This document shows positions 41,412 to 46,452 of a DNA stretch of 64,000 nucleotides, one piece after another (positions within the stretch are counted from its first letter, which is position 1; the number at the start of each line of letters is the position of its first letter). The notes under the pieces are model-generated. The model was not told the DNA's origin, ran no database searches, and saw nothing but the letters and a program-made list of their open reading frames with translations. The DNA lies in NCBI RefSeq assembly GCF_002261335.1, contig NZ_NEVL01000003.1, forward strand, positions 1,612,001 to 1,676,000. Reading direction: 5' to 3'. The position numbers and the translations under genes were made by a program. This stretch comes from Bordetella genomosp. 1. Lineage in GTDB: Bacteria > Pseudomonadota > Gammaproteobacteria > Burkholderiales > Burkholderiaceae_B.

Positions 41412-41440
41412 TTGTCCCCGGCAGACCGATATTCTATAAT
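41412..41440 (+). promoter_or_regulatory. Sigma70 promoter of sugE
   Basis: TTGTCC (41412-41417), a 17-base spacer, and a perfect TATAAT (41435-41440). The expected start of transcription near 41447 is two bases before the first riboswitch hairpin. Confidence 0.8.
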
Positions 41441-41448
41441 CTTTGGCT

Positions 41449-41664
41449 CCGGGACGACCCGGTAGTGACTTTGACGCCGGGCCAGGCATCGGGTGGCAAG
41501 CACGGAGTGGCAGGCACCGAGTGGCAGGCACTGCGTGGCAACCACGGAGTGGCAACCACGGAGTGCCAACCACGGAGTGGGAACCACTGAGTGCCAACTA
41601 AGACGTGCCAACCACCAAGGCCCGCCCCCAGCGTCATCGCGCCCATCATCCCGGGGACGGCCCC
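41449..41664 (+). ncRNA. Guanidine-II (mini-ykkC)-type riboswitch with separated hairpins
   Basis: Hairpin 1 is CCGGG-ACGA-CCCGG (41449-41462). Hairpin 2 is GGGG-ACGG-CCCC (41653-41664). Two GC stems with ACGR tetraloops in front of sugE are the defining features of mini-ykkC RNAs, which bind guanidinium and control Gdx/SugE exporters. The ribosome-binding site of sugE follows hairpin 2 by about 40 bases. In known examples the hairpins are close together; here 190 bases separate them, mostly a tandem repeat. Whether the split form still senses guanidine is unknown. Confidence 0.78.
41481..41620 (+). repeat. 14-bp tandem repeat (ten units) in the sugE leader
   Basis: Ten consecutive 14-base units with consensus GGCAACCACGGAGT. 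Units 4 and 5 (41537-41564) are identical, and the outer units diverge by two to seven bases, suggesting expansion from the centre. The repeat is transcribed and lies wholly between the two riboswitch hairpins. 14 is not a multiple of three, and the array is not translated in any sense frame of a gene. Confidence 0.92.
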
Positions 41665-41717
41665 TCTCTCAGGCAGTTCGCATCGGAGCGGCTGCCGCGT
41701 CTACAGGAGCTGTTTCC

Positions 41718-42035
41718 ATGACCTGGGTCATCCTCGTTCTCGCCGGCCTCTTCGAAGTCGTCTGGGCCATCGGCCTCAAATACACCCACGGCTTCACCCG
41801 CCTCATGCCCTCGGTCGTCACCGTTGCCGGCATGATCGTGAGCTTCTGGCTGCTCGCCACCGCCATGAAAACCCTGCCGCTCGGCACCGCCTACGCCGTG
41901 TGGGTGGGCATCGGCACGCTCGGGGCCTTCATCGCCGGCATCGTCTTGTTTGGCGAGTCGGCCAGCCCGATGCGCATCGCCAGCGTGATGCTGATCGTGG
42001 CCGGCCTGGTCGGCCTGAAGCTCGCCACCCCCTGA
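41718..42035 (+). CDS. sugE: Guanidinium exporter SugE/Gdx (small multidrug resistance family)
   Basis: 105 residues with four membrane helices. The start is the ATG at 41718 after CAGGAG. The signature [14 protein letters not shown] and [16 protein letters not shown], with conserved Glu13 ([17 protein letters not shown]), match the SugE/Gdx branch, which exports guanidinium with proton exchange. The leader carries mini-ykkC-type hairpins, which supports this function over a general quaternary-ammonium pump. It is monocistronic. Confidence 0.95.
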
Positions 42036-43114: not shown

Positions 43115-44038
43115 TCAGCCGACCAGCTTGAGCGTGTCCAGCGGGGTCACCGCCTTGAACGCCTTGCGCGTGGCGATGTGCTCGGGACGCGGATCCAGGC
43201 CGTACTTCGGCGGATTCAGCGTGTTCTCCATGCTGTTGTAGACCATGAAGACGTTCGAGCGCGGCCACGGCGAGATGTTGCTGTTCGAGCCGTGCATGGT
43301 GTTGCAATCGAAGAAGATCACGGACCCGGCCTTGGCCATCATGGTCTTGATCCCGCCCTGCTCGGCGAGCAGCTGCAGGCTGACCTGGTCGGGCACGCCG
43401 TATTCCTGCTTCTTCAGCGACTGCTTGTAGTGGTCGCGCGGGGTTTCGCCCACGCACGAGATGAACTGGCGGTGCGAACCGGGCACCAGCATGAGCGGGC
43501 CGTTGGTCTCGTTGTTGTCCGAGAGCAGCACCGAGCAACTGAGCGCGCGCATCGACGGCATGCCGTCTTCCACGTGCCAGGTTTCAAAGTCGGAGTGCCA
43601 ATAGAACTCCTTGCCGTGAAAGCCGGGCTTCATGTTGGCGCGCGACTGGTGCAGGTAGACCTCGGAACCCAGGATCTGGCGGGCCACGTTGGCCACGCGC
43701 GGATCGCGCGACAGACGCGCCAGGATCGGGCTGAGCACGTGCACCATGAAGATCGACCGCACCACATTGGTGTTGCGCTCGGTGATGGCCTCTTCGCGGC
43801 GGATGATCGCCGGGTCGCGCGTCATGCGCTCGACTTCGCCGAGCAGGTGCGCGACTTCGTCGGCGGAAAACACGTCTTCGAGCAGCAGGAAACCATCGCG
43901 CTCATACGACTGGACCTGGTCGGTGCTCAGCGCGTCGGCATACATTCCGTCGCCGTAGACCACCGGGTCCTGGCGCGCAATGATGGCGGAACCGCGATCC
44001 GTACGCGAGGCGTACGGATCCTTCGCAGGTGAAATCAT
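43115..44038 (-). CDS. ectD: Ectoine 5-hydroxylase
   Basis: Non-heme iron, 2-oxoglutarate-dependent dioxygenase making 5-hydroxyectoine. 307 residues. The EctD signature FYWHSDFETWHVEDGMP is complete. The iron triad is H148, D150 and H249 (TMHGSNSN). Last gene of ectR-A-B-C-D, 24 bases after ectC, and followed by a terminator. The organism can thus make both ectoine and hydroxyectoine. Confidence 0.98.
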   Translation of the reverse strand: MISPAKDPYASRTDRGSAIIARQDPVVYGDGMYADALSTDQVQSYERDGFLLLEDVFSADEVAHLLGEVERMTRDPAIIRREEAITERNTNVVRSIFMVHVLSPILARLSRDPRVANVARQILGSEVYLHQSRANMKPGFHGKEFYWHSDFETWHVEDGMPSMRALSCSVLLSDNNETNGPLMLVPGSHRQFISCVGETPRDHYKQSLKKQEYGVPDQVSLQLLAEQGGIKTMMAKAGSVIFFDCNTMHGSNSNISPWPRSNVFMVYNSMENTLNPPKYGLDPRPEHIATRKAFKAVTPLDTLKLVG

Positions 44039-44062
44039 AAGACTCTCCTATTCGTGAGTACC

Positions 44063-44467
44063 TCAGGCGGCGACCTTGGCGTCGGCGGGCAGCGCGTACA
44101 CGCCGTCGGCGTCGTGCACTTCCTGGCCGGTCAGGGGCGGATTGAAGACGCAGATCACCCGCAGCGGCTCCTTGCCGCCACACAGCCAGTGCTCGTCGTT
44201 TTCGTTCAGGGCGTAGACCACGCCCGGGCCCAGGTCGTACTTCTTGCCATCGGCAATGGTTTCGATCGAACCGTCGCCCTCGATGCACCAGACGGCCTCG
44301 AGGTGGTTCTTGTAGTGGATGTGCGTGCGCGTGCCGGGGAAGATCGTGGTTTCATGGAACGAGAAACCCATGTTGTCCTTCTTCAGCAGCACGCGGCGGC
44401 TGACCCAGGTATCGGTACGCACCTCGTCCTTGGTGCCAATCACATCTTTCACATTACGCACGATCAT
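44063..44467 (-). CDS. ectC: L-ectoine synthase
   Basis: Cupin-fold enzyme closing N-gamma-acetyl-diaminobutyrate to ectoine. 134 residues, normal length. Typical stretches: FHETTIFPGTRTHIHYKNHL and CIEGDGSIETIADGKKYDL. Start overlaps the ectB stop by four bases, so it is translationally coupled. Confidence 0.98.
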   Translation of the reverse strand: MIVRNVKDVIGTKDEVRTDTWVSRRVLLKKDNMGFSFHETTIFPGTRTHIHYKNHLEAVWCIEGDGSIETIADGKKYDLGPGVVYALNENDEHWLCGGKEPLRVICVFNPPLTGQEVHDADGVYALPADAKVAA

Positions 44468-45771
44468 CGACGCTTACCTCCAAATTTGAGTACACGGGCG
44501 GACTTCTCGTCTTCGCCCAGGGCATCGGCCACGCTGGCCTCGATCACGTCCAGGCCACGGGTCAACAGTTCATCCTCGATCGTCAGCGCGGGCAGCAGCT
44601 TGAGCACTTCGTCGTGCGCGCCCGAGGTTTCGATCACCACGCCACGCTCGAACGCCTTGTGCGCGATGCGGTTGGCCAGGCCATGGTCCGTCGTCGCCAC
44701 CAGGCCCTGGATCAGGCCGCGGCCGCGCACGGCCAGCCCGGCATTCGGGTAGCTGTGGGCGAGGTTTTCGAGCCAGTCGCGCACCAGGCGCTCCTTGCGC
44801 TGCACCTCGGTCGAGAACGCGTCGCTGGCCCAGTAGGTGTCCAGCGCCTGCGCCGCCGTGACGAACGCGAGGTTGTTGCCGCGGAAAGTGCCGCTGTGGG
44901 CGCCCGGCTTCCAGATGTCGAGTTCGGGCTTCATCAGCACGAGCGACATGGGCAGGCCGAAGCCCGAGAGCGACTTCGACAGCGTGATGATGTCGGGGCG
45001 GATGCCGGCCGACTCGAAGCTGAAGAAGCTGCCGGTGCGTCCGCAGCCCACTTGGATGTCGTCCACGATCAGCAGCATGTCGTGGCGACGGCAGAGCTTC
45101 TCGAGCTCCTTGAGCCAGCGCAGGGTGGCCACGTTCACGCCGCCCTCGCCCTGCACGGTCTCGACGATCACGCCGGCCGGCTTGTCCAGGCCGCTGCTCG
45201 GGTCATCGAGCATGCGCTCCAGGAAGGCGATGGTGTCGACGTCGGGGCCGAAGTAACCGTCGTACGGCATGAAGGTCGTGTTGCCCAGCGCGTAGCCGGC
45301 GGCATCGCGGAACTTCATGTTCGCGGTGGCGGACAGCGAGCCGCCGCTCACGCCGTGGAAGCCGTGGGTGAACGAGATGATGTTGGAGCGGCCCTTGACC
45401 TGACGGGCGATCTTGAGTGCGGCTTCGACCGCGTTGGTTCCGGTGGGACCGGTGAACTGCAGGGTGTATTGCCAGTTGCGCGGCTTGAGCAGCACGCGGT
45501 CGACCGTCTCGAGGAAGCGCTTCTTGGCGCTGGTGGCCATGTCCAGGCCGTGCACCACGCCGTCGGACTCGAGGTATTCGAGCAGCTTTTCCTTGAAGAC
45601 CGGGTTGTTGTGGCCGTAGTTCAAGGTACCGGCGCCGCTGAAGAAATCGATGTACTCGGTGCCTTCCTCGTCGATCAGCAGAGACCCGCGGGCCTGGCTG
45701 AATATCACTGGAAACGACCGAATGTAGCCCCTGACTTCCGACTCCATCCGGTCAAAAATTTTCAAATCCAT
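44464..45771 (-). CDS. ectB: Diaminobutyrate--2-oxoglutarate transaminase
   Basis: First enzyme of ectoine synthesis: aspartate semialdehyde plus glutamate to 2,4-diaminobutyrate. 435 residues. Class III PLP aminotransferase with the PLP lysine at K266 (TLSKSLSGFGLP) and the Asp of DDIQVGCGRTG. GGGAGG precedes the ATG at 45771. Separated from ectA by 114 bases containing a terminator-like hairpin. An aspartokinase gene (ask_ect) is not in the cluster. Confidence 0.97.
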   Translation of the reverse strand: MDLKIFDRMESEVRGYIRSFPVIFSQARGSLLIDEEGTEYIDFFSGAGTLNYGHNNPVFKEKLLEYLESDGVVHGLDMATSAKKRFLETVDRVLLKPRNWQYTLQFTGPTGTNAVEAALKIARQVKGRSNIISFTHGFHGVSGGSLSATANMKFRDAAGYALGNTTFMPYDGYFGPDVDTIAFLERMLDDPSSGLDKPAGVIVETVQGEGGVNVATLRWLKELEKLCRRHDMLLIVDDIQVGCGRTGSFFSFESAGIRPDIITLSKSLSGFGLPMSLVLMKPELDIWKPGAHSGTFRGNNLAFVTAAQALDTYWASDAFSTEVQRKERLVRDWLENLAHSYPNAGLAVRGRGLIQGLVATTDHGLANRIAHKAFERGVVIETSGAHDEVLKLLPALTIEDELLTRGLDVIEASVADALGEDEKSARVLKFGGKRR

Positions 45772-45861
45772 GTGATCCTCCCATTATCAAATTTACGGAC
45801 GACAAAGCCCCGCCGGGTGCGTTGAGCGCGCCCGGAAACTGGACTGCAGTCGGCGGTACTG

Positions 45862-45880
45862 AAAAGGCCGCTTACGGCCG
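45862..45880 (-). terminator. Terminator-like hairpin between ectA and ectB
   Basis: On the minus strand GGCCG-TAAG-CGGCC followed by TTTTC, six bases after the ectA stop. The stem is only 5 bp, so it is probably a partial terminator or attenuator within the operon. Confidence 0.5.
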
Positions 45881-45885
45881 CCGCA

Positions 45886-46452
45886 TCAATACGGCGGGTC
45901 GAACGGGCCTATCTTCAACAACATCTCGTCATCGTGATCCGCGCCGCCGAAATGCTGCCGATCGAAATACGGCTGCTCGGAGACGTGGGCGCCGAGTTCG
46001 CCGGCCAGGCCGGTGAAGGTGCGGCGCGAAGCCTGGTTGTCAGGCCCCACCGTGGTTTCAAGATGGCGAACCCGCTGCAACGCGTCGCGCGACAGCAGTT
46101 CGTTGAGCATGGCGCGGGCCAGACGCTGGCCCCGCGCACGGGAATGCACGGCCACCTGCCAGACGAAGAGCGTGTCGGGCTGGTTCGGCGGAATGTAGGC
46201 GGAGATGAACCCGTCGATATCGCCACCCAGGCTTTCGGCGACCACGCAGGTCTCGCTGTGGTGTTCGCACAGCAGCAGGTAGGCATAGAGGGAATTGACA
46301 TCCAGCGGCGGGCATTCGGACACCAGCCGGTGGATCGCGGCGCCGTCGGCCAGGCGGGCTGGCCGGAAGATGTGCCGCGGAAGGCGGGCCGGCGCGGGGC
46401 GCGCGGCCGAATTCGGTAGGGAAGAAGTGTTGTTCAGTTCAATGTTTCTCAT
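45886..46452 (-). CDS. ectA: L-2,4-diaminobutyrate N-acetyltransferase
   Basis: GNAT acetyltransferase of ectoine synthesis. 188 residues. The acetyl-CoA motif is seen as [20 protein letters not shown], and the family start [20 protein letters not shown] is present. Start codon overlaps the ectR stop (ATGA). Here ectA follows the regulator directly and is separated from ectB by a weak hairpin. Confidence 0.97.

Follow-up and report, generated by a model that had tools for sequence, protein, structure and literature searches.

Guanidine-II (mini-ykkC) riboswitches are described as pairs of hairpins with ACGR loops, P1 and P2, joined by a flexible linker 7-40 nt in length (PMC7544219; this paper and the others cited by PMC number are drawn on here from excerpts). 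In the excerpts of PMC9094411 and PMC9300104 an anti-Shine-Dalgarno element is proposed within the linker, and the portion used of a crystal study describes a collinear arrangement of the kissing hairpins, a 14-nt linker that must span 49 A in the G. violaceus RNA, and a stem that may overlap both P2 and the ribosome-binding site (PMC5486947). In the titles and abstract openings listed for guanidine-II, mini-ykkC and related riboswitch papers other than the original discovery papers (in one of the searches 10 of 25 papers), no mention of a tandem repeat or of a hairpin in the P1-P2 linker was found.

Examination of a 64-kb window (the whole stretch of DNA analysed here) from the 5.6-Mb genome of Bordetella genomosp. 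1 revealed a leader of this kind upstream of sugE, with a far longer linker. With a probability of roughly two in three, we read it as a translational ON guanidine-II riboswitch of sugE in which an extra linker hairpin has been enlarged to a rod made of repeats. All its features lie on the forward strand. A sigma-70-like promoter (41412-41440) composed of TTGTCC (41412-41417), a 17-nt spacer and TATAAT (41435-41440) is predicted to start transcription at about 41446-41448, and is followed by P1 (CCGGG-ACGA-CCCGG, 41449-41462), a 5-bp hairpin with an ACGA loop, and, after the linker, by P2 (GGGG-ACGG-CCCC, 41653-41664), a 4-bp hairpin with an ACGG loop. The Shine-Dalgarno sequence AGGAG (41705-41709) begins 40 nt past the end of P2, and the gene downstream (41718-42035, stop included, with its ATG at 41718) codes for a 105-aa SMR exporter that matches the SugE equivalog NF008512.1 of NCBIfam at 157.4 bits (cutoff 126), a guanidinium exporter as expected behind a guanidine-II riboswitch. 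An earlier note on this DNA had proposed the same order of promoter, P1, P2, Shine-Dalgarno and sugE, all of which can be read directly in the sequence, and had put the two hairpins about 190 bases apart; the linker is exactly 190 nt (41463-41652).

Between P2 and the Shine-Dalgarno sequence, the minimum free energy structure contains a predicted stem GGCAG...CTGCC (41672-41696) that would place the Shine-Dalgarno sequence beside P2. Similar inverted repeats were seen by eye in this interval in many Bordetella- and Achromobacter-like leaders. A GTG-started frame running through the linker repeats into sugE (41493-42035) was rejected because the 14-nt repeat is read in all three phases and because an ATG follows the Shine-Dalgarno sequence throughout the genus. 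On the other side of the leader lies a divergent gene that we take to be PanD-like, and slightly beyond sugE the minus strand (43115-46452) carries proteins resembling those of ectoine synthesis, presumably EctD, EctC, EctB and EctA.

P1 and P2 form a GC-rich hairpin pair, each closed by an ACGR tetraloop as in guanidine-II RNAs, and are the sole ACGR hairpins with GG/CC and four or more Watson-Crick pairs in the 64-kb window, both strands considered; two such hairpins within 260 nt occurred in none of 50 dinucleotide shuffles of the window. The Rfam model RF01068 matched P1 and P2 separately, at 17.6 and 15.4 bits, and gave only these single-hairpin matches for the leader, with no whole-motif match at the gathering score of 32. 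The check suggested in the earlier note thus returned each hairpin by itself, below that score, and did not return the complete element. Elsewhere in the genome, nine of the 11 RF01068 matches do not belong to this element; six of these (24.1 bits and below) were examined by eye over about 240 nt each, the three weakest (13.4-13.6 bits) being left out, and were treated as chance matches because all six seem to lie inside reading frames. Matches of vertebrate RNAs (mascRNA, miRNAs) to the linker repeats were also rejected, all being far under cutoff.

The failure of the whole-motif search has to be seen against the behaviour of the model in relatives. RF01068 passed its cutoff in 15 of 17 UTRs with short linkers (<24 nt), including four members of the genus at 37.5-40.4 bits, versus one of the 39 longer-linker UTRs scanned, which include the present leader; two leaders devoid of ACGR pairs (G002 and G019) were left out of this comparison, and two UTRs that had been scanned twice enter it once. 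Since RF01068 has little sensitivity for leaders with long linkers, we call this leader a variant of the guanidine-II family, not a standard member of RF01068. A second model, R1, which incorporates the linker hairpin, was built from 26 Achromobacter-like sequences. It finds the leader of the nearest relative by SugE identity (G009, 90%) at 38.4 bits, all nine g16 leaders at 36.1-50.4 bits and leaders of other genera at 18.5-34.2 bits. In the window, R1 recovered the P2 half only, at 17.3 bits (E 0.16), hardly above unrelated places at 14.6-16.0 bits, such as one of 15.6 bits in the window, and the same place came up when the filters were removed; neither RF01068 nor R1 recognises the whole element.

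Close sugE homologs (E <= 1e-30) occur in 11 of 15 genomes examined from the genus, two of the four genomes without one being only 73-77% complete. TATAAT stands just 5' of P1 in 11/11 of these leaders, and therefore a transcription start downstream of the first hairpin, which according to the earlier note would speak against a riboswitch, is unlikely. In ten of the 11 loci TATAAT, P1 and P2 with ACGR loops, the Shine-Dalgarno sequence and sugE follow in the same order. This conservation makes it very probable that the element is a guanidine-II riboswitch split by a repeat array, as that note had suggested. The riboswitch very probably belongs to an under-recognised form with a structured linker, taken here to the extreme of a predicted repeat-built rod.

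The remaining genus leader, L020 of genome G002, keeps intact hairpins roughly between 120 and 50 nt upstream of sugE, with ACAG in both loops. The loss of the kissing CG may reflect matching changes in the two loops or, alternatively, decay by parallel CpG transitions. In group g6, the leaders L021 (G019) and L162 (G145) have kept TATAAT and a P1-like remnant, and P2 is not recognisable; another sugE-type copy in G019 (L218) is preceded by an ordinary leader with two hairpins. Such degenerate cases nearby, the ACAG loops as well as the P2 missing at one sugE copy in each of the two g6 genomes, give some weight to the idea that the leader studied here is itself decaying, split by the array into hairpins that are relics no longer acting together. 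Its two stems are nevertheless perfectly paired, its loops are canonical, the -10 box, the Shine-Dalgarno sequence and sugE are intact, and P1 and P2 have remained intact despite the divergence among the repeat units, so that we consider decay quite unlikely.

A wider survey was based on 127 sugE-type leaders, mostly from the same family, plus seven genomes from elsewhere in the order (119 family genomes matched; G160, near a contig end, and G211, with an internal stop, were left out). Two ACGR hairpins are present in 96 of these leaders, three in 3, one in 11 and none in 17, one of the latter being cut by a contig end. Among named leaders (n=75, from 80 after removal of 5 that duplicate family genomes), 50 carry at least two hairpins, with linkers mostly of 15-21 nt and at most 26 nt.

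The linker of Bordetella genomosp. 1 contains a tandem array (41493-41618) of 14-nt registers with the consensus GTGGCAACCACGGA, which is near-palindromic (GTGG-CAA-CCAC). TRF reported it with a period of 14 (41493-41598, 7.6 copies, score 128) and with a period of 42 (41493 to 41615, score 132), versus best scores of 49-70 per window in 20 dinucleotide shuffles. The array of the earlier note is thus real, with nine in-phase registers instead of the ten units announced. Registers 4 and 5 match exactly, register 8 has degenerated badly and the last one is irregular at its end; 19 substitutions relative to the consensus are spread over the nine registers, and this divergence of most units argues against rapid current slippage.

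Because the 14-mer forms an inverted repeat and the opposite strand of the array folds at least as well as the transcribed one (-67.9 vs -62.4 kcal/mol), the array could be imagined as a protein-binding or DNA-level element, such as a row of near-palindromic operators, that came to lie in the leader by chance. A search of the genome for a second copy returned only the array itself, a 14-nt match and a 17-nt match (the latter two with E > 4), and inspection of the other 10 sugE leaders of the genus revealed no array. Moreover, the array is located inside the presumed transcribed linker, at the very site where relatives are predicted to form an RNA hairpin. An origin as a DNA element is for these reasons improbable, and the array is better read as part of the riboswitch RNA.

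Folding of the linker (41464-41652) gives -91.9 kcal/mol (z -4.35, none of 200 shuffles equally stable), and the array alone (41493-41615) reaches z -5.18 against dinucleotide shuffles. The predicted structure is a single rod-like domain of 176 nt (41465-41640) that would close the linker, leaving 2 free nt after P1 and 12 before P2 (41641-41652), that is, one hairpin domain right after P1 followed by a short free tail. The outermost four pairs of the rod have a mean probability of 0.42, and the flank stem folded without the array shows ordinary stability, equalled by 72 of 500 shuffles. Since palindromic repeats would fold regardless, the stability of the rod does not by itself prove selection. 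Random mutation of a consensus array equalled the observed stability in one of 1000 trials and permutation within columns in 47/1000 for the array and 24/1000 for the whole linker, which in this folding model indicates that the substitutions keep the fold; permutation of unit order was not significant (99/1000 and 62/1000, respectively, at least as stable).

The earlier note had supposed that each change in repeat number could tune or abolish cooperative sensing through the length of the linker. This supposition was not borne out in simulation: in 69 foldings with 1-9 consecutive units removed or 1-3 duplicated, the 5' gap was always 2 and the 3' tail always 12 nt, so that repeat slippage should be buffered. 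A linker that is effectively long, with P1-P2 cooperation lost and the switch weakened or tuned by repeat number, would fit the plain distances, since 190 nt lies outside and far above the 7-40 nt in the excerpt of PMC7544219, and the two loops are 199 nt apart here, versus at most 87 nt in the other 98 UTRs of the relatives surveyed that have at least two ACGR hairpins. The linker is predicted, however, to fold back to 14 unpaired external nucleotides independently of unit number, and so are the long linkers of relatives, which leaves the effectively long linker as an unlikely explanation, if somewhat less so than decay. The folded rod of the preferred riboswitch reading would instead act as a telescoping spacer, in which unit number changes without altering the geometry of the sensor loops because each added unit is absorbed into the rod; we put this forward tentatively.

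In relatives, 59 unique linkers from other species, each 24-150 nt long, were folded, and 55 of them are predicted to form a single helix with a 5' gap of 0-5 nt and a 3' tail within the 6-16 nt allowed, in fact 6-13 nt; the exceptions are G250, G149, G123 and G010. Shuffled linkers showed the same placement in 10.9 cases on average (sd 2.6, maximum 17, 100 rounds). These counts lack independence, as a single Achromobacter-like genus supplies 30 of the 59 linkers. The predicted hairpin domain mostly measures about 15-45 nt, reaching about 70 nt, and the set holds 14 other unique linkers longer than 40 nt. Energy alone constitutes weaker evidence: for 61 linkers, two named ones included, the median z is -1.86 and 61% have p <= 0.05. 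In three Achromobacter-like leaders (L142, L158 and L159), the linker hairpin carries ACGG at its tip on a good stem, giving three consecutive ACGR hairpins. In five others (L129, L135, L136, L137 and L139) the linker is 74 nt long, contains recurring GGCAT/GCCAT motifs and is predicted to form a hairpin that is branched or long; there, P2 lies near the start codon, too close to accommodate the stem usually present between P2 and the Shine-Dalgarno sequence.

A mixed-genus alignment recovered covariation in P1 and P2 and missed the linker hairpin, for which reason the analysis was repeated within single genera. The linker hairpin does covary within the Achromobacter-like set of 26 sequences, with 12 cells changed on both sides compared with a shuffle mean of 3.0 (0/500 as high) and a score of 0.285 compared with 0.211 for shuffles (0/500 as high) and 0.010-0.125 for slid controls. 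Two of the five measures were not significant, namely pairs changed on both sides (61/500) and pair types (125/500), and the test favours the tested structure because this was derived from the same 26 sequences, and completed by eye with two outer pairs. Among the nine g16 sequences, none of the pairs in the linker hairpin was changed on both sides.

As for switching, the predicted unliganded fold of the present UTR pairs an expected 10.8 of the 12 P2 bases with positions -18 to -1, compared with a median of 5.0 over 99 UTRs, 56 of which have at least 4 such bases, and gives P1 a probability of 0.10-0.12. When P1 and P2 are forced, Shine-Dalgarno accessibility rises from 0.20 to 0.33 here; it increases in 64 of the 99 UTRs (mean 0.30 to 0.34), the Shine-Dalgarno choice being a simple purine score that is plainly wrong for some relatives. 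As this rise is modest, the in silico support for the switch is weak and the ON step is proposed by analogy.

We suggest that in the absence of guanidinium P2 would pair with the Shine-Dalgarno region and sugE would be poorly translated, and that binding of guanidinium would promote loop-loop kissing of P1 and P2, hold P2 in its own stem and free the Shine-Dalgarno sequence. The sensor would thereby probably switch on the guanidine export pump encoded by sugE. In this species the linker hairpin may have been enlarged by tandem duplication of the near-palindromic 14-mer, which would fold into a rod because the unit is self-complementary. The free linker, consisting of 2 nt, the base of the rod and 12 nt, would stay about as short as in relatives and, at about 6 A per extended nucleotide, we infer that it could together with the helix width span 49 A. 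A change in copy number would then lengthen or shorten the rod and leave the distance between the sensor loops the same.

A two-part RNA sensor could thus take up a large repeat insertion with its parts kept together. Were the telescoping spacer confirmed, the leader would mark the extreme end of structured-linker guanidine-II RNAs, which the standard model largely overlooks; in the Bordetella/Achromobacter group, sugE leaders with this plan are mostly missed by the curated model at its cutoff. The locus also offers a natural test of intramolecular kissing in guanidine-II RNAs, since kissing within one molecule should tolerate no linkers other than those that fold back.

With the RF01068 guanidine-II RNAs, the leader shares two GC-rich ACGR hairpins upstream of sugE near the ribosome-binding site, and differs from them by its 190-nt linker with an array and a predicted rod, where the excerpt of PMC7544219 gives a flexible 7-40 nt, and by a score under the RF01068 cutoff. 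The Achromobacter- and Bordetella-like leaders with linker hairpins have the same succession of a hairpin domain right after P1, a short unpaired tail, P2, the Shine-Dalgarno sequence and sugE; their hairpin domain is smaller and the linkers inspected contain no tandem array. Tandem-aptamer riboswitches such as those for glycine join two ligand-sensing units, each a full aptamer, through a linker. The sugE leader resembles them in having two sensing units joined by a linker, but its pockets would arise from the loop-loop contact of two mini-hairpins.
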